DNA of 64,000 nucleotides from Advenella incenata. Its GTDB lineage: Bacteria; Pseudomonadota; Gammaproteobacteria; Burkholderiales; Burkholderiaceae_B. Shown piece after piece: positions 44,642-63,965 of this stretch. The translations under genes were made by a program, and so were the position numbers. Below the pieces are notes generated by a model, which searched no databases, was not told where the DNA came from, and saw nothing but the letters and a program-made list of their open reading frames with translations. Location: assembly GCF_004217095.1 (NCBI RefSeq), contig NZ_SHKO01000001.1:558001-622000 (forward strand). Reading direction: 5' to 3'. Positions within the stretch are counted from its first letter, which is position 1; each line of letters starts with the position of its first letter.

Positions 44642-44686
44642 GTTGTCTCCTTGATGATTGAATCATGTTTTCTGTTCCGGCAATTT

Positions 44687-47636: not shown

Positions 47637-47708
47637 TGTTGCTCCCTGGACTAATGAAATCGAATTTGTAATATTTCTGAAAATATAGGGTATGCTCAAC
47701 GCTCAAAA

Positions 47709-49680: not shown

Positions 49681-50643
49681 ATGACATCACTCAGCAAACG
49701 AATTTTTACAGCCCTTTCGCTGGGAATCGTATCTATCGCTGCCCAAGCAGCCTATCCTGAAAACCCTGTCCGGCTGGTGGTGCCGTATGCCGCCGGCGGC
49801 CCGACCGATACATTTGCACGGGCGCTGGCTGATGTCTGGGGGAAAAAACTGGGTACAACGATGATCGTTGAAAATAAGGCAGGCGCGGGCACTATTGTCG
49901 GTACGGAGTTTGTCTCCAAGGCGGCACCCGATGGCTACACCGTGTTGATGTCCACGGTTGCTCATGCGGTCAATCCGACGCTCAACAGCAAGCTTTCCTA
50001 TTCGGACAATGATTTTGCTCCTGTCGGACTGGCGGCGCGTGCGCCGCTGGCGCTCGTCGTAAACAATGATCTGCCGGTTAAAAACCTGGCCGAGTTTCTT
50101 GAATACATGAAACAGAATTCGGAAAAGACCGATTACAGTTCCGCCGGTATCGCCAGTGCGCCTCACCTGGGCGGTGCATTGCTGAACCATGTTGGAAAAT
50201 TCAATGCCAGGCATATCCCTTATAAGGGCAGTGCACCCGCGATGGCAGACTTGATTGGCGGCCATGTTCAGTTCATGATCGATAGCGCGCCAACGGCGCT
50301 GGCGCAAGTGCGGGCAAAAACAGTCCGTCTGATCGCCACGACCATGAGTGAGCGACTACCCCAGACACCGGACATCCCGGCCATTGCCGAAGCATTGCCA
50401 GGCTACGAAGCGTATACATGGAACGCAATGCAGGTGCCTGCCAAAACAGATAAGGACGTGATTGAAGCGTTGCGTTCCAGTCTGCAAGCGGCACTGAACG
50501 ATGAGGGCTTAATGCAAAAGGCCGATCAGATGGGCTTGTTGCTTGAAAGCAAGCCCGATCCACAAGCCCTGAAAGATTTCATCACTGCTGAACAGAAAAA
50601 ATGGAGCGACGTCGTCAAAGCTTCTGACATGGCAACCAATTGA
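49681..50643 (+). CDS. Bug/TctC-type tripartite tricarboxylate binding protein
   Basis: 320 residues from ATG 49681. Signal peptide KRIFTALSLGIVSIAAQAAYP. Family fold: PVRLVVPYAAGGPTDTFARALADVWGKKLGTTMIVENKAGAGTIVGTEFVSKAAPDGYTVLM, then YKGSAPAMADLIGGHVQFMIDSAPTA. Periplasmic receptor for a carboxylate. As is usual for Bug proteins, no membrane subunits are adjacent. First gene of a unit with MaoC and a CoA-transferase. Confidence 0.93.
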   Translation: MTSLSKRIFTALSLGIVSIAAQAAYPENPVRLVVPYAAGGPTDTFARALADVWGKKLGTTMIVENKAGAGTIVGTEFVSKAAPDGYTVLMSTVAHAVNPTLNSKLSYSDNDFAPVGLAARAPLALVVNNDLPVKNLAEFLEYMKQNSEKTDYSSAGIASAPHLGGALLNHVGKFNARHIPYKGSAPAMADLIGGHVQFMIDSAPTALAQVRAKTVRLIATTMSERLPQTPDIPAIAEALPGYEAYTWNAMQVPAKTDKDVIEALRSSLQAALNDEGLMQKADQMGLLLESKPDPQALKDFITAEQKKWSDVVKASDMATN

Positions 50644-50676
50644 GCCGGAAACGGCAATGTAAATACTGGAAAAAAT

Positions 50677-51138
50677 ATGATCTCGCATTCACTGTGTGCG
50701 CAAAAATACTTCGAAGATTTTGAAATCGGTGAAAGGTTCAATATACCTTCAAGAACGATGACCGATGCGTTGTTTGCGGCCTTTCAACTGGCCAGCGGCG
50801 ATAATCATCCTGTGCACTATGACGTGGAATACTGTCGGGCTCATGGCATGCCGCATATGCTGGCACATGGGTTTCAGGTGCTCATTCAGACAGCGGCCGG
50901 TGCCGGTCTGTTTCCACACTGCGTGGAAGAGTCCCTGAAGGCCTTTATCGAACAAAGCAGTAAATTTCTTAATCCGGTTTTTGTAGGCGATACGCTCTAT
51001 TCTTCTTTGGTGGTTTCTGACCTGATTGCCGGGCGCACAACTGGTGTGCTGGTGATGCAATCGACCATTATCAATCAGAATGAAGTTGTTGTACTGGAAG
51101 GCACACAAAAATATCTGCTTCGTAAAAGACAAGTGTAA
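50677..51138 (+). CDS. MaoC-like acyl-CoA hydratase/dehydratase
   Basis: 153 residues, a single hot-dog domain. The hydratase-2 motif is intact: Asp42 and His47 in ASGDNHPVHYDVEYCRAHG, followed by the Gly-containing helix MLAHGFQVLIQTAAGAGL. Members hydrate or dehydrate beta-hydroxyacyl-CoA (for example mesaconyl-CoA or methylmalyl-CoA). Between a dicarboxylate-type binding protein and a CoA-transferase, a CoA-ester hydratase step is likely. The substrate is unknown. Confidence 0.9.
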   Translation: MISHSLCAQKYFEDFEIGERFNIPSRTMTDALFAAFQLASGDNHPVHYDVEYCRAHGMPHMLAHGFQVLIQTAAGAGLFPHCVEESLKAFIEQSSKFLNPVFVGDTLYSSLVVSDLIAGRTTGVLVMQSTIINQNEVVVLEGTQKYLLRKRQV

Positions 51139-51222
51139 TCGACCCGCATACATTCGCGCCTGGCGCAGTGCTTCGGGCAGCGTATAGATAAAGCATAAGC
51201 AATCACGATATTGGAAAAACAG

Positions 51223-52413
51223 ATGCGTCCGCTCCAAGGAATACGAATATTAGACCTCAGCAAAGTTCTTGCCGGCCCGTTATGCGGACAGTATCTTGGT
51301 GATCTTGGTGCTGATGTCATTAAAGTAGAGCCGCCCGGTTCTGGCGATGAGACGCGTGGCTGGTTACCCCAAAAGGACGGGGAATCGGCTTCATTTATGG
51401 CGGTCAACCACAACAAGCGGGGGCTGGCGCTGGATTTGAAGTCACAGGAAGGCAAACAAATCGTTCGTGAACTGGTGGCGCGCGCCGACGTGGTCATACA
51501 GGGGTTCGGCGCCGGTACAGCGCAGCGACTTGGCGTTGACTATCAGAGCTTGTGCGACATCAAGCCCAACCTTATTTATTGTGAAATATCAGGATACGGG
51601 CGCGATGGCCCTTGGGGCGACGAGCCTGGATACGATGTCATGCTGCAGGCTTTCAGTGGCATGATCAGCACTATTGGTCAGCAAGACGGCCCCCAGGCCC
51701 GTGTCAGCTTCTCTCCGGTGGACTTGGGAACGGGGTTGCACGCCGTCTCCGGTATTCTGGCATCCGTTCTGCACAAAAAAAATACGGGAAAGGGAGGTTA
51801 TATAGAAGTCTCCTTGCTGGATACCGCCATGGGGTTTATGGGGTATATGTCTCATAACTATTGGTTTTCAGGTGTTGCACCGTCCAGAATGGGCACGGCG
51901 CATCCGTCACTGTGCCCTTATCAGGCGTTTCGCACCAAAGATGGGGAGCTGATGCTCGGTGTTGGCAACGATCGGCTTTGGCAGCGCTTTTGCCAGGAGG
52001 CCGGGCTGGCGCACTATGCAGACGATCCGGATTTCAGTACCAATGCGCAGCGTGTGAATCACTTTGACCAAACCTGCGCGCTGGTCCAGGAACTTCTGGA
52101 CCAGGATACCACTCAATCCTGGCTATCACGGCTGCGTCGCGCTGGTGTTCCTGTCGCGCCGTTGCATACGCTTGATCAAGCGCTGTCGCACGAACAGGTC
52201 AAGGCACGGAATATTGTGGTTCAAAGCAAGCATCCGACATTGGGAGACTTGCAACATATCGCTTATCCGGTCACCTTCAATAAGGAACCCCGCGGCGTGA
52301 GCCGAACGCCGCCGTTGCTGGGACAGCATACCTCGGAAATCCTGAGCGAGATCGGTTATACGACAGATGCAATAGCGAGGCTGGCCGAAAAAGGCGTTGT
52401 CGGCTGTGCTTGA
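51223..52413 (+). CDS. Family III CoA-transferase (CaiB/BaiF)
   Basis: 396 residues from ATG 51223. A TTG 12 bases earlier is possible. Normal domain order: LQGIRILDLSKVLAGPLCGQYLGDLGADVIKVEPPGSGDETRGW, nucleotide-like loop, catalytic Asp167 in SFSPVDLGTGLHAVSGILA, and the DGELMLGVGNDRLWQRFCQEAGLAHYADDPDF second domain. It moves CoA between carboxylates such as succinyl-CoA and an itaconate- or citramalate-type acid. It should work with the MaoC-type hydratase just upstream. Confidence 0.93.
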   Translation: MRPLQGIRILDLSKVLAGPLCGQYLGDLGADVIKVEPPGSGDETRGWLPQKDGESASFMAVNHNKRGLALDLKSQEGKQIVRELVARADVVIQGFGAGTAQRLGVDYQSLCDIKPNLIYCEISGYGRDGPWGDEPGYDVMLQAFSGMISTIGQQDGPQARVSFSPVDLGTGLHAVSGILASVLHKKNTGKGGYIEVSLLDTAMGFMGYMSHNYWFSGVAPSRMGTAHPSLCPYQAFRTKDGELMLGVGNDRLWQRFCQEAGLAHYADDPDFSTNAQRVNHFDQTCALVQELLDQDTTQSWLSRLRRAGVPVAPLHTLDQALSHEQVKARNIVVQSKHPTLGDLQHIAYPVTFNKEPRGVSRTPPLLGQHTSEILSEIGYTTDAIARLAEKGVVGCA

Positions 52414-52500: not shown

Positions 52501-53430
52501 CTAACGCAACGCGGCGCGCTCTTTGAGCGCCGGCCCGGACTGTCCAAAATGATCCCTGATCGCATTAGTAAAATTGCTGCGGTGATGAAACTTGCGCTCC
52601 AGAATGCCGATGCGACGATAAATTCGGGTTGGTGACAGGTCTACGAACAGCAGTTTTTCATCCTGTTCCCAATTGAGGTTGGCCAGTTTCGGGACAATGG
52701 AAACGCCATATCCCTGGCGTACCAGTTCGATAATGGCTTCGATGGAATTCATTTCCATTTGAATGTCCACGCTGACGGCCAGCTTTTTGAGCGTTTGCCG
52801 GATCAGAATGCCGGTCCAGGTCATCTGGTCGAAATGAATGAACGGCGCATGGTTCAGAATGTCTATTGAAGGATTGCTGGCCTGGTCCGCCAAAGTAAAA
52901 AACGGCTTGCGAGGAATAATCAGAATCATGGGTTCTGCGTAAAGCGGCGTCCAGATCAGTTCCTTGTATGCATATTCCGGCGGTTCGGTGGCAATGGCAG
53001 CATCCAGCTGTCCGCTGGTGATCTTGTGGGCGAAATCGCCGGATTGACCCGCGAACACTTTGACATCCAGCTCCGGATTGTTCTTGCGGATGGACCACAG
53101 CGCATCCGAAAAAGACCCCATCAGGCTGGAGATCAGCGCGCCGATATGCACCGTGCCGGTAAGCTGGCCATGCCGGCCATCCCCGCTTTTGATGATTTCT
53201 TCATATTTGACCAGCAGTTCCTGAACGTCCTTCAACAGTGCTTCGCCATAGTGGTTCAGTACAAGCTGATGCCCGTTCTTATGGAACAGCGGCGCCTCCA
53301 GCGTGTTTTCCATCATTTTGATCTGCTGGCCGACGGCGGCAGAGGTCAGGCCGATTTTCCTGCCGGCGCCGGTATAGGAGCCGCATTCAGCGACCGCGAC
53401 AAACACGTTGAAGGTTCTTAAGGTAATCAT
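52501..53430 (-). CDS. LysR family transcriptional regulator
   Basis: 309 residues: HTH MITLRTFNVFVAVAECGSYTGAGRKIGLTSAAVGQQIKMMENTLEAPLFHKNG. The C-terminal effector domain is normal length and ends RRIGILERKFHHRSNFTNAIRDHFGQSG. Convergent with the CoA-transferase gene and divergent from a second TctC-type gene across an AT-rich gap. Likely regulator of the succinate-dehydrogenase-like cluster. Confidence 0.92.
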   Translation of the reverse strand: MITLRTFNVFVAVAECGSYTGAGRKIGLTSAAVGQQIKMMENTLEAPLFHKNGHQLVLNHYGEALLKDVQELLVKYEEIIKSGDGRHGQLTGTVHIGALISSLMGSFSDALWSIRKNNPELDVKVFAGQSGDFAHKITSGQLDAAIATEPPEYAYKELIWTPLYAEPMILIIPRKPFFTLADQASNPSIDILNHAPFIHFDQMTWTGILIRQTLKKLAVSVDIQMEMNSIEAIIELVRQGYGVSIVPKLANLNWEQDEKLLFVDLSPTRIYRRIGILERKFHHRSNFTNAIRDHFGQSGPALKERAALR

Positions 53431-53613: not shown

Positions 53614-54606
53614 ATGAAGACCATACTGAATCGTGCAGTAGGCGGCTTTTTCAGCAGTGTTGCCTGTGTCGCTATCGCCTGTACCCTGTCCGCGCCGGCA
53701 TTTGCCAGCGAGTGGCCACAACAGCCGGTACGCCTGGTCGTGCCATTTGCAGCGGGCGGCGCCACCGATATTATTTCTCGCGTACTGGCCCAGGAGCTGG
53801 GCAATGCATGGAAGCAGACCGTCGTGGTAGAGAACAAGGTAGGCGCCGGCGGTGCGGTGGGCGCCTCGCAAGTGGCGCGCGCCAAGCCCGATGGCTACAC
53901 CATGCTGATGATCTCGGGCAGCATGTTCACCGTCAACCCCTATCTGTACAAAAAGCTGCCCTACAGTGTCGCGGATTTTCAGCCGGTCAGCATCGTTACC
54001 ACCGGGCCGTTGCTTCTGGGGGTCAACAAGAACGTACCGGCCAGCAACCTGAAGACGTTTCTGGACTACGCCAAAAAGAATGGGACCGCAACCAACTTTG
54101 GTTCGGCAGGGGTGGGGAGCCAGGGCCATATGGCGTCCGAAGCCATCATGAACGCCACGGACGCGACCATGACTCATATTCCCTATGGAGGCGAATCTGC
54201 CGCGTTGACCGATCTGGTGGCCGGGCAGATCCAGGTCATTACCGCCAACCTGTCTGCGACGCTGCCATTCGTGCGCTCGGGCGACATCAAGGCCCTGGCG
54301 GTCACCGGTAATAGGCGCTCCAAGAGCCTGCCGGATGTGCCAAGCGTGCAGGAGCAACTGGGCAGCGACTTTGATGTGGTGGGGTGGTTCGGCATTGTCG
54401 TGCCCAAAGATACGCCGGAAAAGGTTGTGGCACAGATTGAAGAGGGCATCAAAAAGGCGATTGCGTCCAGTCGCATGACGCAAAAATTTTCCGAGCTGGG
54501 CCTGGAGCAGGCGGCAACCGGCGCGGCGTACATGAATGACAGGGTCAAAGACGAGTCAGTCTTCTGGAAGAAAATTATTGCAGAGCAGAAAATCGAATCG
54601 AAGTAA
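53614..54606 (+). CDS. Bug/TctC-type binding protein, second copy
   Basis: 330 residues, AAGGAAGAGACAAAA before ATG 53614. Signal peptide ending FASEWPQ. The fold includes PVRLVVPFAAGGATDIISRVLAQELGNAWKQTVVVENKVGAGGAVGASQVARAKPDGYTMLM and IPYGGESAALTDLVAGQIQVI. First gene of the eight-gene unit 53614-60309, so its ligand is probably the substrate of the succinate-dehydrogenase-like complex, a C4-C5 dicarboxylate or analogue. Confidence 0.93.
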   Translation: MKTILNRAVGGFFSSVACVAIACTLSAPAFASEWPQQPVRLVVPFAAGGATDIISRVLAQELGNAWKQTVVVENKVGAGGAVGASQVARAKPDGYTMLMISGSMFTVNPYLYKKLPYSVADFQPVSIVTTGPLLLGVNKNVPASNLKTFLDYAKKNGTATNFGSAGVGSQGHMASEAIMNATDATMTHIPYGGESAALTDLVAGQIQVITANLSATLPFVRSGDIKALAVTGNRRSKSLPDVPSVQEQLGSDFDVVGWFGIVVPKDTPEKVVAQIEEGIKKAIASSRMTQKFSELGLEQAATGAAYMNDRVKDESVFWKKIIAEQKIESK

Positions 54607-54650
54607 TGATGTAGAACATCCAATATTTATTTGTATCTGAGTGGGACGTT

Positions 54651-55364
54651 ATGGAAAAGATGCTGGCGGTAAAAATCTGGCGGGGCGAGGAAGATGGCGA
54701 GTTTGTCACTTACCAGGTTCCTTCCCGGGAGAACCAGACTGTACTGGACGTGGTGACAGAAATTCAGCGACAGGTAGACCCTACGCTGGCATACCGCTTC
54801 TCCTGTCGGGTAGGCGTTTGCGGCAGCTGTGCAATGACCGTCAATGGCAAGCCAAGGTGGACGTGCAGAAGCCATGTGAAAAATGTCGTGAAAAATAACA
54901 CGATCGTGCTGGAACCGCTGCGCAATATGCCGCGTATCAAGGACCTGGTTGTCGATATGACGGAGTTCTTTGATAAATGGAAAAAGGCCGGTGGCGAGTT
55001 TATCGGCACCCGGACACGCCATGAGCGACCTGCGCTGGTAGATCCTGCCAGCAAGGCCAGAAAACAGGCGGATGCCGCCATCGAGTGCATCAACTGTGCG
55101 GTCTGTTATGCCGCCTGTGATGTGGTTGAGTGGGATAAAGACTATCTGGGGCCGGCAGCACTGAATCGTGCCTGGAGCCTGGTCAATGACGAGCGCCATG
55201 CGGACGCCAAAGGGGTGCTTGAAAAATCAATGGCCGCTGGCGGATGCAATTCCTGTCATACCCAGGGCAGTTGCATGAAGCATTGCCCCGTTGGTTTGAG
55301 CCCCACAGGCAGTATTGCCGGCCTGAAAAAGCGCTCGCTGTTCGAGTTTCTTGGCGGGAAATAG
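54651..55364 (+). CDS. Succinate dehydrogenase/fumarate reductase-like iron-sulfur subunit
   Basis: 237 residues. The plant-type 2Fe-2S site lies in SCRVGVCGSCAMTVNGKPRWTC. The 4Fe-4S and 3Fe-4S cysteines are in CINCAVCYAACD and CNSCHTQGSCMKHCPVGLSP. It has the normal SdhB length, and DYLGPAALNRAWSLVNDERHA matches the helical region between clusters. It carries electrons from the flavoprotein to the membrane anchors. In this operon it comes first, before the anchors and flavoprotein, an order unlike the usual TCA-cycle sdhCDAB. Confidence 0.92.
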   Translation: MEKMLAVKIWRGEEDGEFVTYQVPSRENQTVLDVVTEIQRQVDPTLAYRFSCRVGVCGSCAMTVNGKPRWTCRSHVKNVVKNNTIVLEPLRNMPRIKDLVVDMTEFFDKWKKAGGEFIGTRTRHERPALVDPASKARKQADAAIECINCAVCYAACDVVEWDKDYLGPAALNRAWSLVNDERHADAKGVLEKSMAAGGCNSCHTQGSCMKHCPVGLSPTGSIAGLKKRSLFEFLGGK

Positions 55365-55366
55365 CC

Positions 55367-55702
55367 ATGGAAATGAAACTTTTTCTATTGCAGCGGCTAA
55401 CAGCCATGATCATGGTGCCGTTTATTTTTGTGCATATCGGCGTGATCATCTATGCAGTTCGTGGCGGCCTGAGTGCCGAGGAAATTCTGGGGCGCACCCA
55501 GGGCAATGGGTGGTGGATTGCCTTCTATACCTTGTTTGTCATTAGTGCGTCAATTCATGCGCCAATTGGGATTCGCAAGGTGCTCAGGGAGTGGGCCGGC
55601 TTGTCGTATTCCGTGCTTAATCTGCTGGCAGTAGCGCTGGGCCTGTTGTTTCTGGTGCTTGGCTTGCGTGCTGTGGTCGCGGTAGGAGGACTGGCATGGT
55701 AA
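55367..55702 (+). CDS. Succinate dehydrogenase-like membrane anchor (SdhC type)
   Basis: 111 residues from ATG 55367, one codon after the SdhB-like stop; longer in-frame starts overlap that gene. Three helices: LTAMIMVPFIFVHIGVIIYAV with a His, NGWWIAFYTLFVISASIHAPIGI with another His suited to heme binding, and YSVLNLLAVALGLLFLVLGLRAVVAV. It overlaps the next gene by 7 bases. Confidence 0.8.
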   Translation: MEMKLFLLQRLTAMIMVPFIFVHIGVIIYAVRGGLSAEEILGRTQGNGWWIAFYTLFVISASIHAPIGIRKVLREWAGLSYSVLNLLAVALGLLFLVLGLRAVVAVGGLAW

Positions 55703-56052
55703 GGAGCGTTCATAAACATAAAGCCTATTTTGCCTTCTTGGGACACAGGATTTCCGGTCTGCTGTTGGGCATCTTTCTTCCCATTCATTTTTATGTACTG
55801 GGCCTGGCGCTGGAGCAGACCGATCAATTTGACCGGTTCCTGAAATTTTCCGAATTGCCCGGCGTTAAGGTTGCCGAATGGGGACTGGTGCTGTTGCTGG
55901 CCATTCATCTGAGTTTCGGACTGCGGATTTTGGTGATTGAGTTTGTACAGTGGCCAACGCCAGGGTCCATACGGTTGAACTGGATCAGTTGGGGGTTGGT
56001 GTTCAGCGTCATCATCGGCGCAGTGTTTCTTGCAGGGGTATTCGGGTCATGA
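55696..56052 (+). CDS. Succinate dehydrogenase-like membrane anchor (SdhD type)
   Basis: 118 residues and three helices: FAFLGHRISGLLLGIFLPIHFYVLGLAL, VAEWGLVLLLAIHLSFGLRILVIEFVQW and ISWGLVFSVIIGAVFLAGVFG. HRISG and the paired His residues match the quinone- and heme-facing parts of cytochrome b-type anchors. It overlaps its neighbours by 7 and 4 bases, so the four SDH-like subunits are translated together. Confidence 0.82.
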   Translation: MVRSVHKHKAYFAFLGHRISGLLLGIFLPIHFYVLGLALEQTDQFDRFLKFSELPGVKVAEWGLVLLLAIHLSFGLRILVIEFVQWPTPGSIRLNWISWGLVFSVIIGAVFLAGVFGS

Positions 56053-57785
56053 ATGTAGAAAATTTGAAAACGGATATTCTTATCCTTGGTAGTGGTGGCG
56101 CGGGCCTGTTTGCCGCCCTGCACGCAAAGCAGGCCAACCCGAATCTGGATGTCACGATCGCGGTCAAGGGCCTAATCGGCAAAAGCGGCTGTACACGGAT
56201 GGTGCAGGGCGGCTATAACGTTGCCCTGGCCGAAGGCGACTCGGTAGAGCGACACTTTATGGACACCATCGAAGGCGGCAAATGGCTGCCTCGCCAGGAT
56301 CTGGCCTGGCGCCTGGTAACCGGCGCGGTGGAGCGGGTCCAGGAGCTGGAAAATGAAATCGGCTGCTTTTTTGATCGCAACCCCGATGGTACGCTGCATC
56401 AGAAAGCCTTTGCCGGACAGACGTTTGACCGGACGGTGCATAAGTCAGACCTGACTGGCATTGAAATTATCAATCGCCTGATGGAAAAGGTCAGGGCGCT
56501 GGATGTCAATCGTCTTGAAGAGCATCGGGCGATCGAGCTGATCCCCGCTGCTGACGGCTCCGGTATTTCAGGCGTATTGTTCATCGATATGCGCAGCGGC
56601 GGATACCGCTTTGTGCAGGCCAAGGCTGTGCTGCTGAGCACGGGCGCCGGGCCAACCATGTATCTGTATCACACGCCGTCAGGCGAGAAAACCTGTGACG
56701 GCCTGGCCATGGCGCTGCGCTATGGCCTGAAACTGCGCGACATGGAGATGGTGCAGTTTCATCCGACTGGCCTGCTGGGCGGGCCCGATACGCGCATGAC
56801 CGGTACTGTACTTGAGGAAGGCCTGCGCGGCGCCGGCGGTTACTTGATCAATGGCGCAGGGGAACGCTTCATGAGCAACTATCACGAACGGGGCGAACGC
56901 GCCACGCGTGATGTGGTCAGTCGCGGGATTTATGCAGAAATGCGCGCCGGGCGAACCAGCCCCATGGGTGGCGTGTACATCCAGATGTCGCATCTGGGCG
57001 TGGAACACGTACGCAAGTCATTCCCGGGCATGGTGCAGCGTTGTGGCGATTGTGGTTTCGATCTTGCCGGCGGACAGGTTGAGGTGGTGCCTACCGCGCA
57101 CTATCTGATGGGCGGTGTGGAGTTTGAAGTGGACTGCTCAACTGCCTCTCCGGGCCTGTTTGCTGCCGGGGAAGATTGCGGTGGGGTACATGGCGCCAAC
57201 CGTCTGGGCGGCAACGGCGTCGCCAATTCAACCGTGTTCGGCGGCATTGCCGGCGACTCGATGGCCGAATACGTGCGCAAGGAGGGAAGCTGGCGGCAGC
57301 CCGATCAGTCTGTGATTGAAGCGGGCATTGCCCGTGCCGAATTTCCCTTTTCCAGAAAAGCCGACATGACGCTGCCGCTGCGCGATGCCTTGTCAAAAAC
57401 CATGTGGAACGACGTGGGTATTTTGCGAACCAAAGAAGGCATAGAACAGGGCATAGCCAGTATTGCCCGGCATCATGACGCATTGCGTTCGATTGGCGTG
57501 GCCGACGGGCAGCGCAGGTTCAATCTGAGCTGGCATGACTGGCTTAACCTGGAGAGCCTGACGACAATTTCAAAAGTGATTGCAACGGCGGCGCTGGCCA
57601 GAAGCGATAGCCGAGGCGCGCATTTCAGGGAAGATTATCCGGAAACCGGCAATCTGGACACCACTGCCTATACCAGTGTCAGCGGCAGTGAAGACAACAT
57701 TGAACTGCAGATGGTTCCGGTCAAGTTCGATATCGTCTCTCCAGGCAATACATTGATTGGCCAAGAGGCAGAAAAATGTGCGTGA
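56049..57785 (+). CDS. Succinate dehydrogenase/fumarate reductase-like flavoprotein with altered flavin site
   Basis: 578 residues from ATG 56049. FAD motif ILGSGGAGLFAALHAK (residues 12-27). The segment that carries the covalent FAD His in SdhA (SHTVSAQGG) reads GCTRMVQGG, with Cys48 at the His position, so FAD is probably not bound in the usual covalent way. The catalytic core otherwise follows SdhA: His238 in FHPTG, Arg260, Arg287 in RDVVSR, His351 in HYLMGG and Arg384 in GANRLGGN. The motif RGEGG reads RGAGG, Ala262 replacing the substrate-site Glu. These changes favour a substrate larger than, or unlike, succinate. The overlap is 4 bases with the anchor gene. Confidence 0.85.
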   Translation: MNVENLKTDILILGSGGAGLFAALHAKQANPNLDVTIAVKGLIGKSGCTRMVQGGYNVALAEGDSVERHFMDTIEGGKWLPRQDLAWRLVTGAVERVQELENEIGCFFDRNPDGTLHQKAFAGQTFDRTVHKSDLTGIEIINRLMEKVRALDVNRLEEHRAIELIPAADGSGISGVLFIDMRSGGYRFVQAKAVLLSTGAGPTMYLYHTPSGEKTCDGLAMALRYGLKLRDMEMVQFHPTGLLGGPDTRMTGTVLEEGLRGAGGYLINGAGERFMSNYHERGERATRDVVSRGIYAEMRAGRTSPMGGVYIQMSHLGVEHVRKSFPGMVQRCGDCGFDLAGGQVEVVPTAHYLMGGVEFEVDCSTASPGLFAAGEDCGGVHGANRLGGNGVANSTVFGGIAGDSMAEYVRKEGSWRQPDQSVIEAGIARAEFPFSRKADMTLPLRDALSKTMWNDVGILRTKEGIEQGIASIARHHDALRSIGVADGQRRFNLSWHDWLNLESLTTISKVIATAALARSDSRGAHFREDYPETGNLDTTAYTSVSGSEDNIELQMVPVKFDIVSPGNTLIGQEAEKCA

Positions 57786-57812
57786 ACGCAAACGGAAATC
57801 AGGAGACAGGTA

Positions 57813-58754
57813 ATGGCAATTGACATAAATACGATCGAGCAGGCAGCGCTGGAAATAATGAAGCGCGCGGCCATCGATATTCCCGAAGATTACAGCCAGG
57901 GAATCAAGGCGATGCAGCAAACGGAGACGGGCAAGTTGCCGCGCTTCGTGCTGCACGCCATGGTGGACAACTGGGACGCGGCCACCAAGGACCGTCGCCC
58001 CATGTGCGCCGATACCGGAGTACCGCGCTACTACGTGAAAATGGGCAATAACGCCAGTGTGCAATCGGGTTTCATCGGTATCGAGCGGGCATTGCGCAAG
58101 GCAACCGCAGATGCCACGGTACAGATCCCCTTGCGGCCCAACAGGGTGCACCCGTTGTGGCGCACCGAACACAACAACAATGTCGGGATCAATGCACCGG
58201 AGATCGAATGGTCATTCGAGCCGGATGCAGACTGGGTGGATATCACCACAGTGCATAAAGGCGGGTTGTTCGGCACCGACTACCGGATGCTGTTTCCGGG
58301 CGACGGGATTGACGGCATCAAGCGCTTTGTCCTGGACGGCCTGATTGCATTTGGCAAACGCGGTCTGGCCTGCCAGCCGGCGATTGTTGGCATCGGCATT
58401 GGCGGCTCCAAGGATACCTGTATGCAACTGGGCAAACAGGCGGCGTGCCTGCGAACCGTGGGCAACCGTAATCCCGATCCGAAAATTGCAGAGCTGGAAA
58501 TGGAGCTGAAAAAACTCGGCAACTCAATCGGCATGGGTGCGATGGGCTTTGTGGGATCATCCATGGTGGTCGATTGTCATATCGAGGTGGGCTACACCCA
58601 TACTGGCGGCATGCCGGTCAGTATTCACACCTTCTGCCTGTCGTCGCGTCGGGCAACAGCCAGGATTCATGCAGACGGGCGTGTTGAATATCGTACCAAT
58701 CCGGAATGGTTCACGCCTTATATGAGAAGGGAGACAGTCGAATGGAACCGATAA
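57813..58754 (+). CDS. Class I fumarase/tartrate dehydratase-like hydratase, alpha subunit
   Basis: 313 residues, GGAGACAGGTA before the ATG. Class I (iron-sulfur) fumarase alpha family: MCADTGVPRYYVKMG, GKRGLACQPAIVGIGIGGSKDTCMQLGKQAACLRT, then VVDCHIEVGYTHTGGMPVSIHTFC. Cysteines in these three blocks suit a 4Fe-4S dehydratase cluster. Two-subunit class I enzymes hydrate fumarate, mesaconate or dehydrate L-tartrate. The sequence is clearly distinct from the single-chain fumarases. It directly follows the SDH-like complex, so it likely hydrates that enzyme's unsaturated product. Confidence 0.88.
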   Translation: MAIDINTIEQAALEIMKRAAIDIPEDYSQGIKAMQQTETGKLPRFVLHAMVDNWDAATKDRRPMCADTGVPRYYVKMGNNASVQSGFIGIERALRKATADATVQIPLRPNRVHPLWRTEHNNNVGINAPEIEWSFEPDADWVDITTVHKGGLFGTDYRMLFPGDGIDGIKRFVLDGLIAFGKRGLACQPAIVGIGIGGSKDTCMQLGKQAACLRTVGNRNPDPKIAELEMELKKLGNSIGMGAMGFVGSSMVVDCHIEVGYTHTGGMPVSIHTFCLSSRRATARIHADGRVEYRTNPEWFTPYMRRETVEWNR

Positions 58755-59449
58755 GCAACCAGGATACAGAGAACAATAAAGATGAAGATCTGAAGGTTTT
58801 CAGAATCAATCTTCCGGCCACACCCGAGGACATCGCCAGCCTGGAAATCGGCTCGGTGGTCTACATGAGCGGCGTGGTCTACACCGCCAGGGAGGGTGTC
58901 TATCAGAAAGTCATGGGTAATGGCGAGGCACTGCCCGTAGACTTGAAAACGCTTTCCAACGTTAATTTCCACTGTTCGCCGGCTGCGGCCGTCACGCCAG
59001 ATGGCCAATACAACGTGGGTGCTGTCACGGCAACGGCCAGTTTCCGGTTCTCCAAGTGGATGGCCAACTGGCTTGAACTGACAGGAACGAAAATTGTGAT
59101 CGGCAAGGGCGGCATGCCGCACGACGATTATGCCAATATCATGGTCCCCCATGGCGCTGTCTATCTGACCACCGTGGGATACGGCACCGGCGCGCTTCTG
59201 GGCCGTGGCATCAAGCGGGTTCGCGATGTGTTCTGGCTGGATGAATTGGGTATCGCCCAGGCCATGTGGCTGTTTGAAGTGGAGGATTTTGGCCCTTTCA
59301 TCGTGGAGAGCGATATCAAAGGCAATTCGCTGTTTCATCAGCACGGCGAGCAGATCAACGCCCGCATTGATGCGCTCTACGCCGGCTTGAAGCCGCCTGC
59401 GCTGCACCGGTTTGGCGAGACCAATGATCGTAAAGACGAAGTAATGTAG
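58742..59449 (+). CDS. Class I fumarase/tartrate dehydratase-like hydratase, beta subunit
   Basis: 235 residues from ATG 58742, overlapping the alpha gene by 13 bases. Beta domain: GSVVYMSGVVYTAREGVYQKV, then FHCSPAAAV, GAVTATASFRFSKWMANWLEL where canonical enzymes read GPTTSxRM, the nucleotide-like GKGGM loop, and the C-terminal FWLDELGIAQAMWLFEVEDFGPFIV. The altered GPTTS-type loop lies next to the substrate in class I enzymes and adds to the evidence for an unusual substrate. Confidence 0.87.
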   Translation: MEPISNQDTENNKDEDLKVFRINLPATPEDIASLEIGSVVYMSGVVYTAREGVYQKVMGNGEALPVDLKTLSNVNFHCSPAAAVTPDGQYNVGAVTATASFRFSKWMANWLELTGTKIVIGKGGMPHDDYANIMVPHGAVYLTTVGYGTGALLGRGIKRVRDVFWLDELGIAQAMWLFEVEDFGPFIVESDIKGNSLFHQHGEQINARIDALYAGLKPPALHRFGETNDRKDEVM

Positions 59450-59460
59450 GAGAAGGAACG

Positions 59461-60309
59461 ATGAGTATTATTGATTTTCGGCTACGGCCGCCGGCAGGAC
59501 AGTTTTTGTCTACGCTCATGTATGCACAGGGCGAACGCCGGGACGGCTTTACCCGAACGGTTGGCTTTGAGCCGTCGCCGGCGGCGCAGCAGCAGTCCAT
59601 GCAGATGACCCTTGAGGAAATGGATGAGGCCGGGGTGGATCATGGCGTTGTTGTAGGCAGGCTTGCCGGCATGCTGGGCAGCATTTCCAACGATGATGTC
59701 CTGGCTCTGATGCAAGCGCATGGCAACCGGTTTATCGGCGCGGCCTCTATTGATCCGACCAACAGGATTGAAGCATGCCGCAGCATTGACCAATCCATGG
59801 CTGCAGGTTTTCGCCTGATCAATATCGAACCTGGCGCCTATCCGATACCCATGTACGCTGATGATCGACGCCTGTATCCCATTTATGCCCATTGTGAAGA
59901 TCGCCAGATTCCCATCATTCTGATGGTGGGTGGCACGGCGGGTCCCGACCTGAGTTACTCCGATCCGATTCCGACAGACCGTATGCTGGCCGACTTTCCC
60001 AATCTGAAAGTCGTGCTCGCTCACGGCGGCTGGCCGTGGGTGACGCAGATACTGCATATTGCCTTTCGGCGCACCAATGTATATCTGTCGCCCGATATGT
60101 ATTTCTCCCGCATGGCGGGTTGGGAAGAATATGTGAAGGCTGCAGACGGGTTCCTGGCAGACCGGATGCTATACGCCAGTTCTTTCCCGTTCTGCCCGAT
60201 CAAAGGGTATAAGGAATGGTTCGAAACCCTGCCGATACGGCAAGAGAATCGCAGGAAAATCATGGGAGAAAATGCGAGCAGGCTGCTGGGCGTGAACAGA
60301 CGAGGATGA
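59461..60309 (+). CDS. Amidohydrolase-2 fold protein lacking canonical metal ligands
   Basis: 282 residues, AGGAGAAGGAACG before ATG. TIM-barrel protein of the amidohydrolase_2 family: VVGRLAGMLGSISNDDVLALMQAHGNRFIGAASIDPTNR, GFRLINIEPGAYPIPMYADDRRLYPIYAHCEDRQIPIILMVGG and FPNLKVVLAHGGWPW, the usual order. Yet the strand-1 HxH motif is replaced by DFRLRPP (residues 5-11) and the strand-8 catalytic Asp region by YASSFPFCPIKGY, where relatives read a GSDxP form. So a metal-dependent hydrolase mechanism is unlikely; it may be a metal-independent lactonase or decarboxylase, or a non-catalytic partner. Last gene of the SDH-like cluster. Confidence 0.82.
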   Translation: MSIIDFRLRPPAGQFLSTLMYAQGERRDGFTRTVGFEPSPAAQQQSMQMTLEEMDEAGVDHGVVVGRLAGMLGSISNDDVLALMQAHGNRFIGAASIDPTNRIEACRSIDQSMAAGFRLINIEPGAYPIPMYADDRRLYPIYAHCEDRQIPIILMVGGTAGPDLSYSDPIPTDRMLADFPNLKVVLAHGGWPWVTQILHIAFRRTNVYLSPDMYFSRMAGWEEYVKAADGFLADRMLYASSFPFCPIKGYKEWFETLPIRQENRRKIMGENASRLLGVNRRG

Positions 60310-60317
60310 TTGCCGCC

Positions 60318-60785
60318 CTAAACGCGTTGCGCAAACATCCGCTTATCATAGGAAAAATCATAGATATCCAAGACCTTGACGTTGGAGATGGCTGGGTGCA
60401 ACGGGTTTAAAACAATATTATGTTCCAGGGGAAGCACTACCGAGGGGACAATAAGTCCTAATTGACTTGCCGATTTCAGCCACTTTGTTCCAAACGACAT
60501 ACTGGCTCTGTCGGCAGGTAAAGAAGCCCATCCGACAGGTAATGCTTGTGGTTCGACCTTCAGATATAAGCTCGCGTCGTCCGGCAGTTCAAAGCAGGTG
60601 ATTTTCAACGGAAATGTTGGACGGGCGCTGGCATGCACGAACGTTTCAAGCGCACAGATGGCCGGTGACAGGCCCATGTAAACGGCGGGCACATCCATAT
60701 CGTTCCATCGACCGCCTTCGATCGCCGCGCCGCGGCCGGACAAATCGGTTGCCCGTTTTTCTTTTGTGACACGCCAAGCCTGCAT
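60318..60785 (-). CDS. RES-domain toxin
   Basis: 155 residues from ATG 60785, sharing one base with the antitoxin stop (TAATG). RES fold: AWRVTKEKRATDLSGRGAAIEGGRWNDMDVPAVYMGLSPAICALETFVH at the N-terminus, containing the Arg, Glu and Ser residues that name the domain (RxxxxR..G..W; E in AICALET), then the C-terminal VLDIYDFSYDKRM. RES toxins degrade NAD+. Its gene is the downstream partner of an Xre-type antitoxin, in the standard order antitoxin then toxin. Confidence 0.9.
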   Translation of the reverse strand: MQAWRVTKEKRATDLSGRGAAIEGGRWNDMDVPAVYMGLSPAICALETFVHASARPTFPLKITCFELPDDASLYLKVEPQALPVGWASLPADRASMSFGTKWLKSASQLGLIVPSVVLPLEHNIVLNPLHPAISNVKVLDIYDFSYDKRMFAQRV

Positions 60786-61243
60786 TAAACCACTCCACCC
60801 CATTCGAGGGCGTTCAGGACGCGGCGAACCTGTTTCGCCCCTATTTCTGTTTCGCACTGCATCACTGGACTGTTGCCGCCCAAAGCGTCGTTAGGTGCAG
60901 CCAGCCAGCGAGTTGCTTTTTGTTTGTCTTCAAAAACGTCCTCGGCCAGGATCGCGATCGAAGCTAATCGGTCCAGTCGTTCTGAGGCGACTGAGTCCAG
61001 AGGTTTTTCATCCTTTTTACGGCGCTCATATGTAGACAGTGATAGATTGAGCAAGCGCCCGATGCTTGTGGATGACATGCCGAAGGTCGATTTAGCTGCG
61101 GTAGCCCAAGATACACTCAAACCGGCCGTGATGGACTGGATGCGTTGCCCTTCGCTCATCCGGGCATGAACATGTGCCAGACGCCAGAAGGATGGTGGGG
61201 CAGGGATTTGTTGGTTTTCCCTTAGCGTACGATGAGTTTTCAT
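60785..61243 (-). CDS. Xre/MbcA/ParS-type antitoxin
   Basis: 152 residues. A helix-turn-helix region GLSVSWATAAKSTFGMSSTSIGRLLNLSLSTYERRKKDEKPLD is followed by the C-terminal domain of unknown function typical of this family (DRLASIAILAEDVFEDKQKATRWLAAPNDALGGNSPVMQCETEIGAKQVRRVLNALEWG), which caps the RES toxin's active site. Antitoxins of this class repress their own operon; a palindrome overlapping the promoter lies just upstream. Confidence 0.92.
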   Translation of the reverse strand: MKTHRTLRENQQIPAPPSFWRLAHVHARMSEGQRIQSITAGLSVSWATAAKSTFGMSSTSIGRLLNLSLSTYERRKKDEKPLDSVASERLDRLASIAILAEDVFEDKQKATRWLAAPNDALGGNSPVMQCETEIGAKQVRRVLNALEWGGVV

Positions 61244-61553: not shown

Positions 61554-63965
61554 ATGATTAATAAATTAACGAGCATTGTCATCGCGCTCGTCGGACTCGC
61601 GATGCTATACATGGGCGGCAAGCTATGGTTGGTAGGCGGTTCGCCGTTCTACGCCATCCTGGCAATCGGCCTGCTGATTACCGCGGTTCTTTTGTTCATG
61701 AAACGCGTTATCGCTTTGTCTGTCTATGCCGTCATCATGTGGATCGTGATGGGGTGGATTGTTTACGAAGTCGGCTTTGATAAATGGCAATGGATTCCCC
61801 GTGGCGATATTATCGGCCTGATTGGGCTCTGGCTCGCACTGCCGTGGGTGGTGCGTCCGCTGTTCCGGAAACAGAATCCAGGCGCGGTTCGCTCTTTCCA
61901 TCCGTTCCTGGGTGGTACCGTCCTCTTCTCTATTGCACTTGTGATCGGCATGATGTTTTACGATCCGTATCCGCAGCACGGTACTTTGGCGACTGATCGC
62001 AATGCCGCTGATGTTGATGTCGCGCAGAATGACTGGACAGCCTATGGCGGCACGAATAACGGCCTGCGGTTTTCTGCGCTCAAGCAGATTACCAAGGATA
62101 ATGTTGGCGATCTGGAAGTGGCCTGGACCTATCGGACCGGCGACCTGCGTCAGGGCGAAGACGCCAGTGAGTATACCTTTGAGGCTACGCCGTTGAAGGT
62201 AAACAACACGGTATATTTATGCACTGCGCATAATGAAGTGCATGCGCTGAACCCGGAAACGGGCGAGGTGAAATGGAAATATGCGCCTGAGAAAAATCGC
62301 TCCTATTTGCAGCAGCATCAGACATGCCGGGGCGTGAGTTATTATGCAGGCAATGATGTTGCGACGGCTGGCGGCACGCAGCCAGCTGAACCGGCTACCG
62401 CCGGCGCGCCAGCTCAGAGTCCGGCTGCATGCAGCAAGCGCATTCTGAGCGCCACGGCCGATGCCAAACTGGTTGCGCTGGATGCCGATACCGGCAAGCT
62501 CTGCGCAGACTTTGGCCAGAATGGCGTAGTGGACCTTCATGCCAATTTGGGCGAAGTCCGCCCTCATGCATATATGCAGACCGCTGCGCCTCTGGTGGCG
62601 GGCAATCTGGTGATTGTAGGTGGCTCGGTCATGGATAATGGCTATGACAAGGGTAATCCTTCCGGTGTGATCCGCGCATATGATGTCGCGAGCGGCAAAC
62701 TGGTCTGGAACTTTGATCCGGCCAATCCTGACAACACCCAGCCCATTGCGCAAGGGCAGGTTTATCCTCAGGACACGCCTGTGGCCTGGACGACGCTGAG
62801 CGCTGATACCAAGAATGGCATCGTGTATGTGCCTTTCGGCAACGCCTCTCCGGACTTGCTGAGCGATCAGCGTGACCCCAACAGCAATACCGAGAAGTTT
62901 CGTGATGCGCTGGTCGCCCTGGACCTGAAAACCGGTGCGTTCAAATGGCGCTTCCAGTCTTCGGCCAACGATTTATGGGATCGTGATAATCCGTCCCAGC
63001 CTTCACTGTTGGATATTGATTACCAGGGACAAAAGCAGCCTGTGATCGTGCTGCCCACCAAAGTCGGAAATCTGTTTGTGTTGAACCGTTTATCCGGCCA
63101 GGCCGTGTATCCGATCAAACAGGTTGATGTCTCGACGCAGGGCGTGACAGGCGAGACCTACGCGCCAACGCAGCCGGTTTCGGCATTGAACTTTATACCC
63201 GAGCCGCTGACCGAAAAATCCATGTGGGGTATGACGCCATTTGATCAGATGGCATGCCGTATCGAGTTCAACACATTGCGATATGATAGCAACCCCTGGA
63301 CGCCGGCAACCGAAACCGGTTCGTTGGTTTTTCCGGGCAATATTGGAGCTTTCAACTGGGGATCGATCTCCATTGACCCCGAGCGGCAAATCCTGATCGG
63401 TGCACCGGTTCGTCTGGCCTATAAATACAACCTCATCAAGCGCACGCCCGAAACGGCAGACAAACGTCTGTTCACCCAGGAGGATACACCCTACTGGAAC
63501 GAGAATTTTGACGGCACGTATGCAACCCAGATCCGGCAGTTTGCCTCAGCTCTGGGCGTGCCATGTATCGCGCCGCCATGGGGCCGCATGGTCGGGGTTG
63601 ACCTGACCACCGGTAAAACGGCCTGGATGCGTCGCATCGGCAATACTAAAAACCTGAAGACCAGCTTTCTGCCCATGCGCTTTCCCGTTGGCTTCCCAAT
63701 GGGCATGGTGGCGCACGGCGGTCCGCTCACAACCGCTGGCGACGTTGTTTTCCATGGCGCGACGGCAGACAATTTCTTTCGTGCGTATGACATCAATACA
63801 GGCGAGCTGCTTTGGGAAACAGAACTGCCGGCCGGCGCCCAGGCCACGCCGTCCACCTATATGGGATCGGATAATAATCAGTACGTAATTATCGCAGCCG
63901 GCGGGCATGGTTCGCTGGGCACCCAGCAGGGCGATTCGGTGGTCGCGTTCCGATTGAAAAAATAG
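61554..63965 (+). CDS. gcd: PQQ-dependent membrane dehydrogenase, glucose/quinate/shikimate family
   Basis: 803 residues, AAGGAACTGTC before ATG. Five N-terminal membrane helices (residues about 5-145), then the eight-bladed PQQ propeller in the periplasm from about residue 155: WTAYGGTNNGLRFSALKQITKDNVGDLEVAWTYRTGD, GVIRAYDVASGKLVWNFDPA, and FKWRFQSSANDLWDRDNPSQPSL near the active-site Asp region. Ends GGHGSLGTQQGDSVVAFRLKK. Electrons pass to ubiquinone. Glucose and quinate/shikimate enzymes are hard to tell apart by eye, so the gene symbol is a family-level choice. The last 35 bases of the window follow its stop. Confidence 0.85.
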   Translation: MINKLTSIVIALVGLAMLYMGGKLWLVGGSPFYAILAIGLLITAVLLFMKRVIALSVYAVIMWIVMGWIVYEVGFDKWQWIPRGDIIGLIGLWLALPWVVRPLFRKQNPGAVRSFHPFLGGTVLFSIALVIGMMFYDPYPQHGTLATDRNAADVDVAQNDWTAYGGTNNGLRFSALKQITKDNVGDLEVAWTYRTGDLRQGEDASEYTFEATPLKVNNTVYLCTAHNEVHALNPETGEVKWKYAPEKNRSYLQQHQTCRGVSYYAGNDVATAGGTQPAEPATAGAPAQSPAACSKRILSATADAKLVALDADTGKLCADFGQNGVVDLHANLGEVRPHAYMQTAAPLVAGNLVIVGGSVMDNGYDKGNPSGVIRAYDVASGKLVWNFDPANPDNTQPIAQGQVYPQDTPVAWTTLSADTKNGIVYVPFGNASPDLLSDQRDPNSNTEKFRDALVALDLKTGAFKWRFQSSANDLWDRDNPSQPSLLDIDYQGQKQPVIVLPTKVGNLFVLNRLSGQAVYPIKQVDVSTQGVTGETYAPTQPVSALNFIPEPLTEKSMWGMTPFDQMACRIEFNTLRYDSNPWTPATETGSLVFPGNIGAFNWGSISIDPERQILIGAPVRLAYKYNLIKRTPETADKRLFTQEDTPYWNENFDGTYATQIRQFASALGVPCIAPPWGRMVGVDLTTGKTAWMRRIGNTKNLKTSFLPMRFPVGFPMGMVAHGGPLTTAGDVVFHGATADNFFRAYDINTGELLWETELPAGAQATPSTYMGSDNNQYVIIAAGGHGSLGTQQGDSVVAFRLKK

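Follow-up and report, generated by a model that had tools for sequence, protein, structure and literature searches.

The window analysed here, a stretch of 64,000 nucleotides of the Advenella incenata genome (contig NZ_SHKO01000001.1, positions 558,001 to 622,000), carries at positions 53614-60309 of its forward strand an operon of eight co-directional open reading frames (ORFs) which, with a probability that we put at roughly 70%, serves the import, dehydrogenation and hydration of 3-sulfopropionate to sulfolactate. Its core would probably be, and this part we hold a little less firmly, a paralogue of respiratory complex II acting as a 3-sulfopropionate:quinone oxidoreductase, which feeds electrons from a sulfonate to the quinone pool, together with a sulfoacrylate hydratase of wide occurrence. 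From gene content, family identity, the suy cluster of the same genome, co-occurrence and neighbourhood we predict the exact substrate, the direction and stereochemistry of the reactions, and each catalytic step. The parts of the pathway are of known kinds, and their use on 3-sulfopropionate would be new.

Organization and conservation of the operon

The ORFs and their Pfam domains bear out the eight co-directional, partly overlapping genes described in the first-pass annotation, with three overlapping junctions (55696/55702, 56049/56052 and 58742/58754) when the starts 55367, 56049 and 58742 are adopted in place of those of the longest ORFs. The first gene codes for a TctC-type periplasmic substrate-binding protein (53614..54606; TctC, 2.9e-66), presumably involved in substrate uptake, and is followed on the same strand by an SdhB-like iron-sulfur (Fe-S) subunit (54651..55364; Fer2_3 and Fer4_17; TIGR00384, 185 bits for a cut-off of 88), two membrane subunits with a Sdh_cyt domain (55367..55702 and 55696..56052) and an SdhA-like flavoprotein (56049..57785; FAD_binding_2 and Succ_DH_flav_C), which we propose to be the catalytic chain of a dehydrogenase acting on 3-sulfopropionate. 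Next come the alpha (57813..58754; Fumerase, 1.2e-69; TIGR00722, 232 bits for a cut-off of 100.65) and beta (58742..59449; Fumerase_C, 2.2e-26; TIGR00723, 118 bits, under the cut-off of 145) subunits of a class I Fe-S hydratase, proposed to act on 3-sulfoacrylate, and a protein of the amidohydrolase-2 type that lacks the usual metal motif (59461..60309; Amidohydro_2, 2.1e-34). The SdhB-like gene first and the SdhA-like gene after the membrane subunits stand as originally described, but the membrane genes had been placed in the order SdhC then SdhD, and we read B-D-C-A instead because the first has TIGR02968 (SdhD-type anchor) as its sole NCBIfam match and the second fits TIGR02970 best (SdhC-type, cytochrome b556), both under the cut-off. 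A scan for promoters and terminators gave sites no more frequent than in shuffled sequences.

A scan of species genomes returned at least 578 SdhA-like relatives among 591 pattern matches, of which the best 80 (at least 66% identity) were used for comparison. Around these, genes similar to SdhB, hydratase alpha and hydratase beta were present at 74, 72 and 73 of the 80 loci, respectively, a recurrence from which we conclude that the grouping is not due to chance. Uptake genes differ among loci, with TctC, TctCBA, SsuA-like, Liv-like or tripartite ATP-independent periplasmic (TRAP) transporter genes nearby. The core common to the loci consists of the dehydrogenase and the hydratase, and no further enzyme is constant.

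Association with C3-sulfonate genes

The SdhA-like gene was found in 51 of 399 genomes of the order (E <= 1e-180), spread over 25 of 159 genera, and a SuyB-like (sulfolactate sulfo-lyase) gene in 72 (E <= 1e-120), spread over 32 genera. The latter is present in 50 of the 51 genomes harboring the SdhA-like gene versus 22 of the 348 that do not (Fisher odds ratio 741, uncorrected for kinship), and in 39 of the 50 genomes holding both the two genes lie within 20 kb on one contig. In a set of 61 relatives, 16 carry the SdhA-like gene at 64% identity or more (E <= 1e-100). A sample of 299 genomes of the phylum shows a looser link, with SuyB (E <= 1e-100) in four of the seven genomes with the SdhA-like gene (two of the seven belong to the order and five lie outside it, SuyB being present in two of these five) versus 4 of the 292 others. 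The name SuyB is given on gene context, the query being 91% identical to a gene that adjoins hpsN and hpsO on a Cupriavidus pinatubonensis plasmid; no SuyB model was matched in an NCBIfam search of the protein. According to the accessible part of a review, SuyAB was identified in C. pinatubonensis.

When the neighbours of the window's operon and of 94 further loci (95 in all) were clustered, UxaA-type proteins similar to SuyB (24/95) and SuyA (21/95) were found together with SlcC-like 2-hydroxyacid dehydrogenases (18/95), ComC-like Ldh2 proteins (22/95; best NCBIfam model L-sulfolactate dehydrogenase, under the cut-off), TauE/SafE (25/95), SsuA-like binding proteins (13/95) and GntR regulators (18/95), and sulfite/sulfate exporter genes recur beside the operon. 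The labels HpsO and HpsP express cluster likeness only, the NCBIfam matches there being general short-chain dehydrogenase/reductase and zinc-dehydrogenase models. With marker thresholds of our own choosing, a C3-sulfonate enzyme lies in the flanks of 29 of the 80 named loci, and either such an enzyme or a gene for sulfite/sulfate handling in 37 of the 80 (23 of the 44 with full flanks). The loci under study also supplied the marker references, so that six of the 80 match themselves (L071, L073, L075, L105, L120 and L121), the other references (L149, L152, L169, L171, L177 and L180) lying outside the 80; the TauE of L171 was checked separately by Pfam and by its 52% identity to Paracoccus TauE. 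Among the 43 loci with no marker in the flank, SuyB is present elsewhere in the genome for 32, in a genome-wide search confined to these 43; at 17 other loci the flank has a marker and SuyB is absent from it. In addition, a thiamine diphosphate (TPP)-dependent enzyme of the acetolactate synthase type is found at 27 of the 80 loci (2732-4390 in L075, and relatives), is absent from the window's operon and reaches no curated cut-off among the 25 best NCBIfam models shown, and a CoA-acylating gene similar to methylmalonate-semialdehyde dehydrogenase is found at six. Both may represent upstream or side steps, the second perhaps coding for a 3-sulfopropionaldehyde dehydrogenase.

The SdhA-like gene was also found in 16 plasmid records, and the nine that were examined (H4, H6, H8, H9, H10, H13, H14, H15 and H16) mostly show C3-sulfonate company. 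For example, the operon is accompanied by TauE, two UxaA proteins (SuyA/B-like), SlcC-like, ComC-like and GntR genes on a Methylobacterium radiotolerans plasmid, by YeiH, TauE, ComC-like and SlcC-like genes in Paracoccus versutus, by a sulfate exporter, a sulfite dehydrogenase and TauE in M. nodulans, and by a sulfate exporter, a sulfite oxidase and TauE in Pseudomonas MPC6. A gene annotated as sulfolactaldehyde reductase lies near the operon on the NT-25 plasmid, and a YeiH gene about 8 kb from it in Paracoccus seriniphilus. At three plasmid loci a small NIPSNAP-family protein adjoins the sulfate exporter gene (L149 18365-18679, L177 17141-17467 and L178 16485-16799).

Further afield, Rhodococcus jostii RHA1 has an SdhA-like chain with 50% identity and, within the same 40 kb, SuyB- (60%), SuyA-, SlcC-, ComC- and YeiH-like genes. 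The haloarchaeon Natribaculum harbors SdhA- and SdhB-like genes, TauE and two UxaA proteins, and no class I hydratase was found within the stretch in view. At the hydratase's place, beside the SdhA/B-like pair, its plasmid carries a divergent argH-annotated gene (L176, 10218-11720, minus strand; Lyase_1, argininosuccinate lyase/fumarase superfamily), which may be a non-orthologous replacement of the hydratase. In the A. incenata genome itself, a cluster on contig C2 comprises SuyB-like (85%, C2:412328), SuyA-like (74%) and SlcC-like (57%) genes, a TctC-like ORF and a GntR/UTRA regulator, and the same contig carries a ComC-like gene (59%, C2:201679) and Xsc (C2:529512, over the cut-off).

The simplest substrate had at first been taken to be methylsuccinate, oxidised to mesaconate and hydrated to citramalate, the route perhaps being finished by a nearby unit of TctC, MaoC and class III CoA-transferase genes (49684-52413, plus strand). 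The chemistry fits, and class I fumarases hydrate mesaconate according to the accessible text of PMC12290011. Genes similar to itaconyl-CoA hydratase (Ich, NF038241) are weakly associated with the SdhA-like gene, in 10 of 51 genomes versus 14 of 348 others at a threshold of 190 bits that was picked after viewing the list, none of the 399 genomes reaching the curated cut-off. The association with SuyB-like genes is far stronger (50/51 vs 22/348), and the MaoC gene lies beside the operon at 3 of the 95 loci, each from the same genus as the window, and the CoA-transferase cluster at 5 of the 95. The MaoC protein scores 40.6 bits to RipB/Ich (cut-off 340), the CoA-transferase best fits succinate-glutarate CoA-transferase under its cut-off, and the best Ich-like gene of the genome lies elsewhere (C1:1118215). 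With MaoC under its cut-off and the unit not kept in relatives, an Ict-Ich-Ccl linkage was not found, citramalyl-CoA lyase not having been searched for. We therefore abandon methylsuccinate as the preferred substrate and the MaoC unit as its completion, and consider this route very unlikely. The suggestion of a dedicated dehydrogenation followed by class I hydration, outside the tricarboxylic acid (TCA) cycle, is retained. Likewise, the alternative first proposal of a sulfonated C4 acid gave the right lead as to the sulfonate, but a C3 compound, 3-sulfopropionate, is the most likely substrate.

The SdhA-like flavoprotein

The operon shares with complex II (succinate dehydrogenase, SDH, or fumarate reductase, FRD) the four-subunit layout, with FAD_binding_2 and Succ_DH_flav_C domains, an Fe-S subunit and two Sdh_cyt anchors in one operon. 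The residues aligned with His232, Glu245, Arg248, Arg287, His355 and Arg390 of FrdA are retained in the operon's chain. In an alignment of 94 SdhA-like rows, some of them identical or near-identical, no row has lost the catalytic His, Arg or Glu. In contrast to complex II, Cys48 occupies the site of the His that links flavin adenine dinucleotide (FAD) in 94 of 94 rows, Glu256 stands at the substrate-contact Thr site (FrdA Thr244) in 94 of 94, and a six-residue insertion between two substrate contacts brings in an Arg (Arg249, present in 93 of 94); the sulfonate genes that accompany the operon are a further difference. The housekeeping SdhA of the same genome has SHT at the FAD-linking site. 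Since the catalytic residues are kept and the Cys and Glu replacements are invariant, the dehydrogenase looks active, uniform across the family and tuned to a substrate other than succinate. The invariant Cys might carry the FAD through a cysteinyl bond, for which we know of no precedent in complex II.

The SdhA-like chain falls under all curated SdhA, FrdA, TfrA and NadB cut-offs shown, with 340 bits to TIGR01816 (cut-off 727), 427 to TIGR01812 (cut-off 567) and 497 to the top NCBIfam model, TfrA (cut-off 718). Thiol:fumarate reductase has a TfrAB organisation, whereas the operon's flavoprotein is accompanied by two membrane anchors. A search of phages gave five records with 31-33% identity to the SdhA-like chain, bearing an SDH/FRD annotation where annotated.

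The hydratase

The hydratase resembles class I fumarase, L(+)-tartrate dehydratase and mesaconase in being a two-subunit Fe-S hydro-lyase with Fumerase and Fumerase_C domains, and its three cluster Cys align with those of the alpha chain of a solved two-subunit fumarase. It differs from them in forming a subfamily of its own, about 25% identical to the two single-chain fumarases of the genome, and does not reach the class I fumarase equivalog cut-offs (NF004885, 211 bits for 276; NF004708, 126 bits for 269). Two hydratase subfamilies, 34% identical in the pair compared, are found beside the SdhA-like gene, the window's type with the motifs MCADTG, LRPNRV and HTGGMP and the other with LCQDTG, LRSSVV and HITMNP, each at 42 loci by motif. 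A quick tree requires two switches between the types, of which its starred branches force only one. That the hydratase was exchanged and the dehydrogenase retained is in keeping with a route fixed in its two steps.

Distinction from the enzymes of the TCA cycle

The A. incenata genome (4.9 Mb, 10 contigs) carries an mdh - GntR - sdhC - sdhD - sdhA - sdhB - citrate synthase (gltA) locus on contig C3, and three other PF05681 genes, two of which code for single-chain class I fumarases (rows own_L153 and own_L154 of the comparison). The first-pass annotation had held that the operon would be the housekeeping enzyme if the genome had no other sdh operon, and this does not apply because the mdh-sdhCDAB-gltA locus exists. 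It had also called for a comparison with true SdhA: the window's chain is 32% identical to the housekeeping SdhA and 31% to the NadB-like protein of the genome, and neither groups with the SdhA-like family when 79 rows are placed in a quick maximum-likelihood tree, the branches between them being very long and their exact position unsure. The tree left out L051, L055 and rows shorter than 540 amino acids or lacking the start motif; in L135 the SdhA-like gene was found by tblastn and is absent from the ORFs of the gene caller. A gene at C1:193504 was considered as a second SDH flavoprotein and rejected, since its product looks like NadB and the adjoining ORFs like NadA and NadC (translations by eye, flavoprotein domains).

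The distinctness of the operon from the TCA-cycle enzymes is thus borne out. That it represents a housekeeping or duplicate succinate dehydrogenase and fumarase agrees with its domain content, but given the separate sdh locus, the low identity, the distance in the tree and the absence of an SdhA-like match (E <= 1e-180) from 348 of the 399 genomes of the order, we regard this as scarcely credible.

Proposed pathway and alternatives

In the proposed pathway, the TctC protein would capture the sulfonate substrate, and the complex II-like enzyme would oxidise 3-sulfopropionate, which is isosteric with succinate and has a sulfonate in place of one carboxylate, to 3-sulfoacrylate by removal of two hydrogens. 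Quinone would receive the electrons by way of FAD, the Fe-S clusters and the membrane subunits. Water would then be added to 3-sulfoacrylate by the two-subunit hydratase in a fumarase-like reaction, yielding 3-sulfolactate. Fumarase stereochemistry would give the L form, (2R)-3-sulfolactate, the substrate of SuyAB; by the Cahn-Ingold-Prelog rules the geometry of L-malate with a distal sulfonate is (R), the form cleaved by SuyAB, so no racemisation would be needed. SuyAB would cleave sulfolactate to pyruvate and sulfite, some genomes using sulfopyruvate decarboxylase and Xsc instead, and the sulfite would be exported or oxidised. No simpler acid than 3-sulfopropionate would give sulfolactate by an SDH-type step followed by a fumarase-type one. 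The downstream genes, in the operon's genomes or adjoining it, are those of sulfolactate degradation via SuyAB with SlcC/ComC in Chromohalobacter, Paracoccus and Cupriavidus, whereas the inputs of these systems are cysteate, sulfolactaldehyde and dihydroxypropanesulfonate in the published sources as far as accessible, and that of the operon would be 3-sulfopropionate via an SDH-like enzyme. An L-aspartate-oxidase-like reaction on cysteate was set aside because the hydratase would have no place in it.

Several observations weigh against this pathway. The co-occurrence links the operon to sulfolactate, so its tie to the substrate itself is indirect. One of the 51 SdhA-like genomes of the order (G242) lacks SuyB, an Ldh2/ComC-like ORF lying behind its SdhA-like gene, as do three of the seven in the phylum sample (three of the five outside the order), and among these three a substitute was seen in G473 only. 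There, the operon is adjoined by a gene resembling hpsN (55% to an annotated one) and by genes for both sulfopyruvate decarboxylase subunits, alpha and beta (157 bits for a cut-off of 148 and 233 for 221.5), which are predicted to provide an alternative means of sulfolactate disposal. The other two genomes, G604 and G626, have a TauE gene only (49-52% to Paracoccus TauE), and the TauE family is broad, so that such a neighbour alone is weak evidence. No marker lies in the fetched flanks of 43 of the 80 loci, and 11 of these 43 genomes are without SuyB; at the Sulfitobacter S190 locus, sulfonate markers are lacking up to a distance of 14 kb. The two haloarchaeal UxaA proteins have a low identity to SuyB/SuyA (35-37%), and in A. 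incenata the operon (C1) and the suy genes (C2) are unlinked. Moreover, a Glu at a carboxylate-binding Thr site would be odd for a dianionic substrate. Mutants without the FAD-linking His are impaired in succinate oxidation more than in fumarate reduction, so its loss in this family makes a reductive direction possible. Finally, induction on sulfofucose, if it concerns the operon studied here, needs no 3-sulfopropionate.

The reverse direction, in which sulfolactate is dehydrated to 3-sulfoacrylate and reduced to 3-sulfopropionate as an electron sink in a fumarate-reductase mode, appears unlikely. An altered flavin linkage favours reduction in the Escherichia coli enzymes, and the Cys in all 94 rows agrees with this. 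A sulfonate routed via sulfolactate, not 3-sulfopropionate, induces a Paracoccus cluster that, by its description in the accessible text, may be the P. versutus operon. However, the adjoining SuyAB-like, sulfite/sulfate exporter, sulfite dehydrogenase and importer genes fit full degradation, and the membrane subunits best fit the SDH b556 and anchor models. Another sulfonated acid, such as sulfosuccinate or a longer sulfo-dicarboxylate that reaches sulfolactate by further steps, would accord with the varied uptake genes, and the amidohydrolase-like (10/80 loci) and TPP-enzyme (27/80) genes could serve the extra steps, but the constant core of dehydrogenase and hydratase, with no extra enzyme, makes this improbable.

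According to a 2024 paper, as far as its text is accessible, bacterial degradation of 3-sulfopropionate was unreported apart from a thesis in which Roseovarius nubinhibens degrades homotaurine via 3-sulfopropionate, sulfoacrylate and sulfolactate. Cupriavidus necator H16 is reported to convert homotaurine to 3-sulfopropanoate. Enterococcus gilvus and its relatives among the gut Firmicutes form the compound from dihydroxypropanesulfonate, and Bilophila can use it for the production of hydrogen sulfide, the mechanism in the latter being unclear according to the accessible part of a 2026 review. HpfX/HpfYZ of E. gilvus (PMC11489063) share this metabolite with the proposed pathway but form it, and no degradation genes are named in the accessible text of that paper. 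The literature searched, accessible in part and leaving outside most subscription journals and all bioRxiv preprints, gave no gene assignment for 3-sulfopropionate oxidation, and a search for sulfolactate sulfo-lyase together with succinate dehydrogenase/fumarate hydratase gave nothing relevant by title. The operon therefore supplies candidate genes for 3-sulfopropionate degradation, which makes this gap testable. If the proposal is true, a sulfonate would join succinate in donating electrons directly to quinone. The operon is also a warning that, in many proteobacteria, genes bearing the annotation succinate dehydrogenase, fumarate reductase or fumarate hydratase may be sulfonate genes.

The amidohydrolase-like protein and neighbouring genes

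The amidohydrolase-like protein is degenerate, as first described: it starts with IDFRLRPP where metal-dependent members carry the H-x-H motif, and as to the other metal ligands of amidohydrolase 2, ASSFPF pairs with GTAYPM in the alignment, with no Asp. It is a close homologue of Bordetella BB4693 (PDB 3irs and 3k4w; phmmer 8.6e-99 to 3irs), which also has IDFRLRPP and for which a literature search found no paper.

A candidate LysR-type regulator gene is divergent from the operon (52501..53430, minus strand; LysR_substrate and HTH_1), and LysR genes lie near the operon in many relatives. About 6 kb from the operon, the minus strand at 43313-47639 codes for a major facilitator superfamily transporter, an acyl-CoA ligase and a SauS-type acylating sulfoacetaldehyde dehydrogenase (756 bits, NCBIfam cut-off 600), with a divergent IclR-type gene; this is a predicted sulfoacetate cluster, members of which are presumably SauT and SauU. 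Directly downstream of the operon lies a RES-domain/Xre-MbcA antitoxin pair (60318-61243, minus strand; Pfam), and a RES/DUF2384 pair is also found near the operon on the Pseudomonas plasmid. Finally, the plus strand at 61554-63965 codes for a membrane dehydrogenase dependent on pyrroloquinoline quinone (PQQ), with a PQQ beta-propeller domain and, by eye, of the glucose dehydrogenase type.

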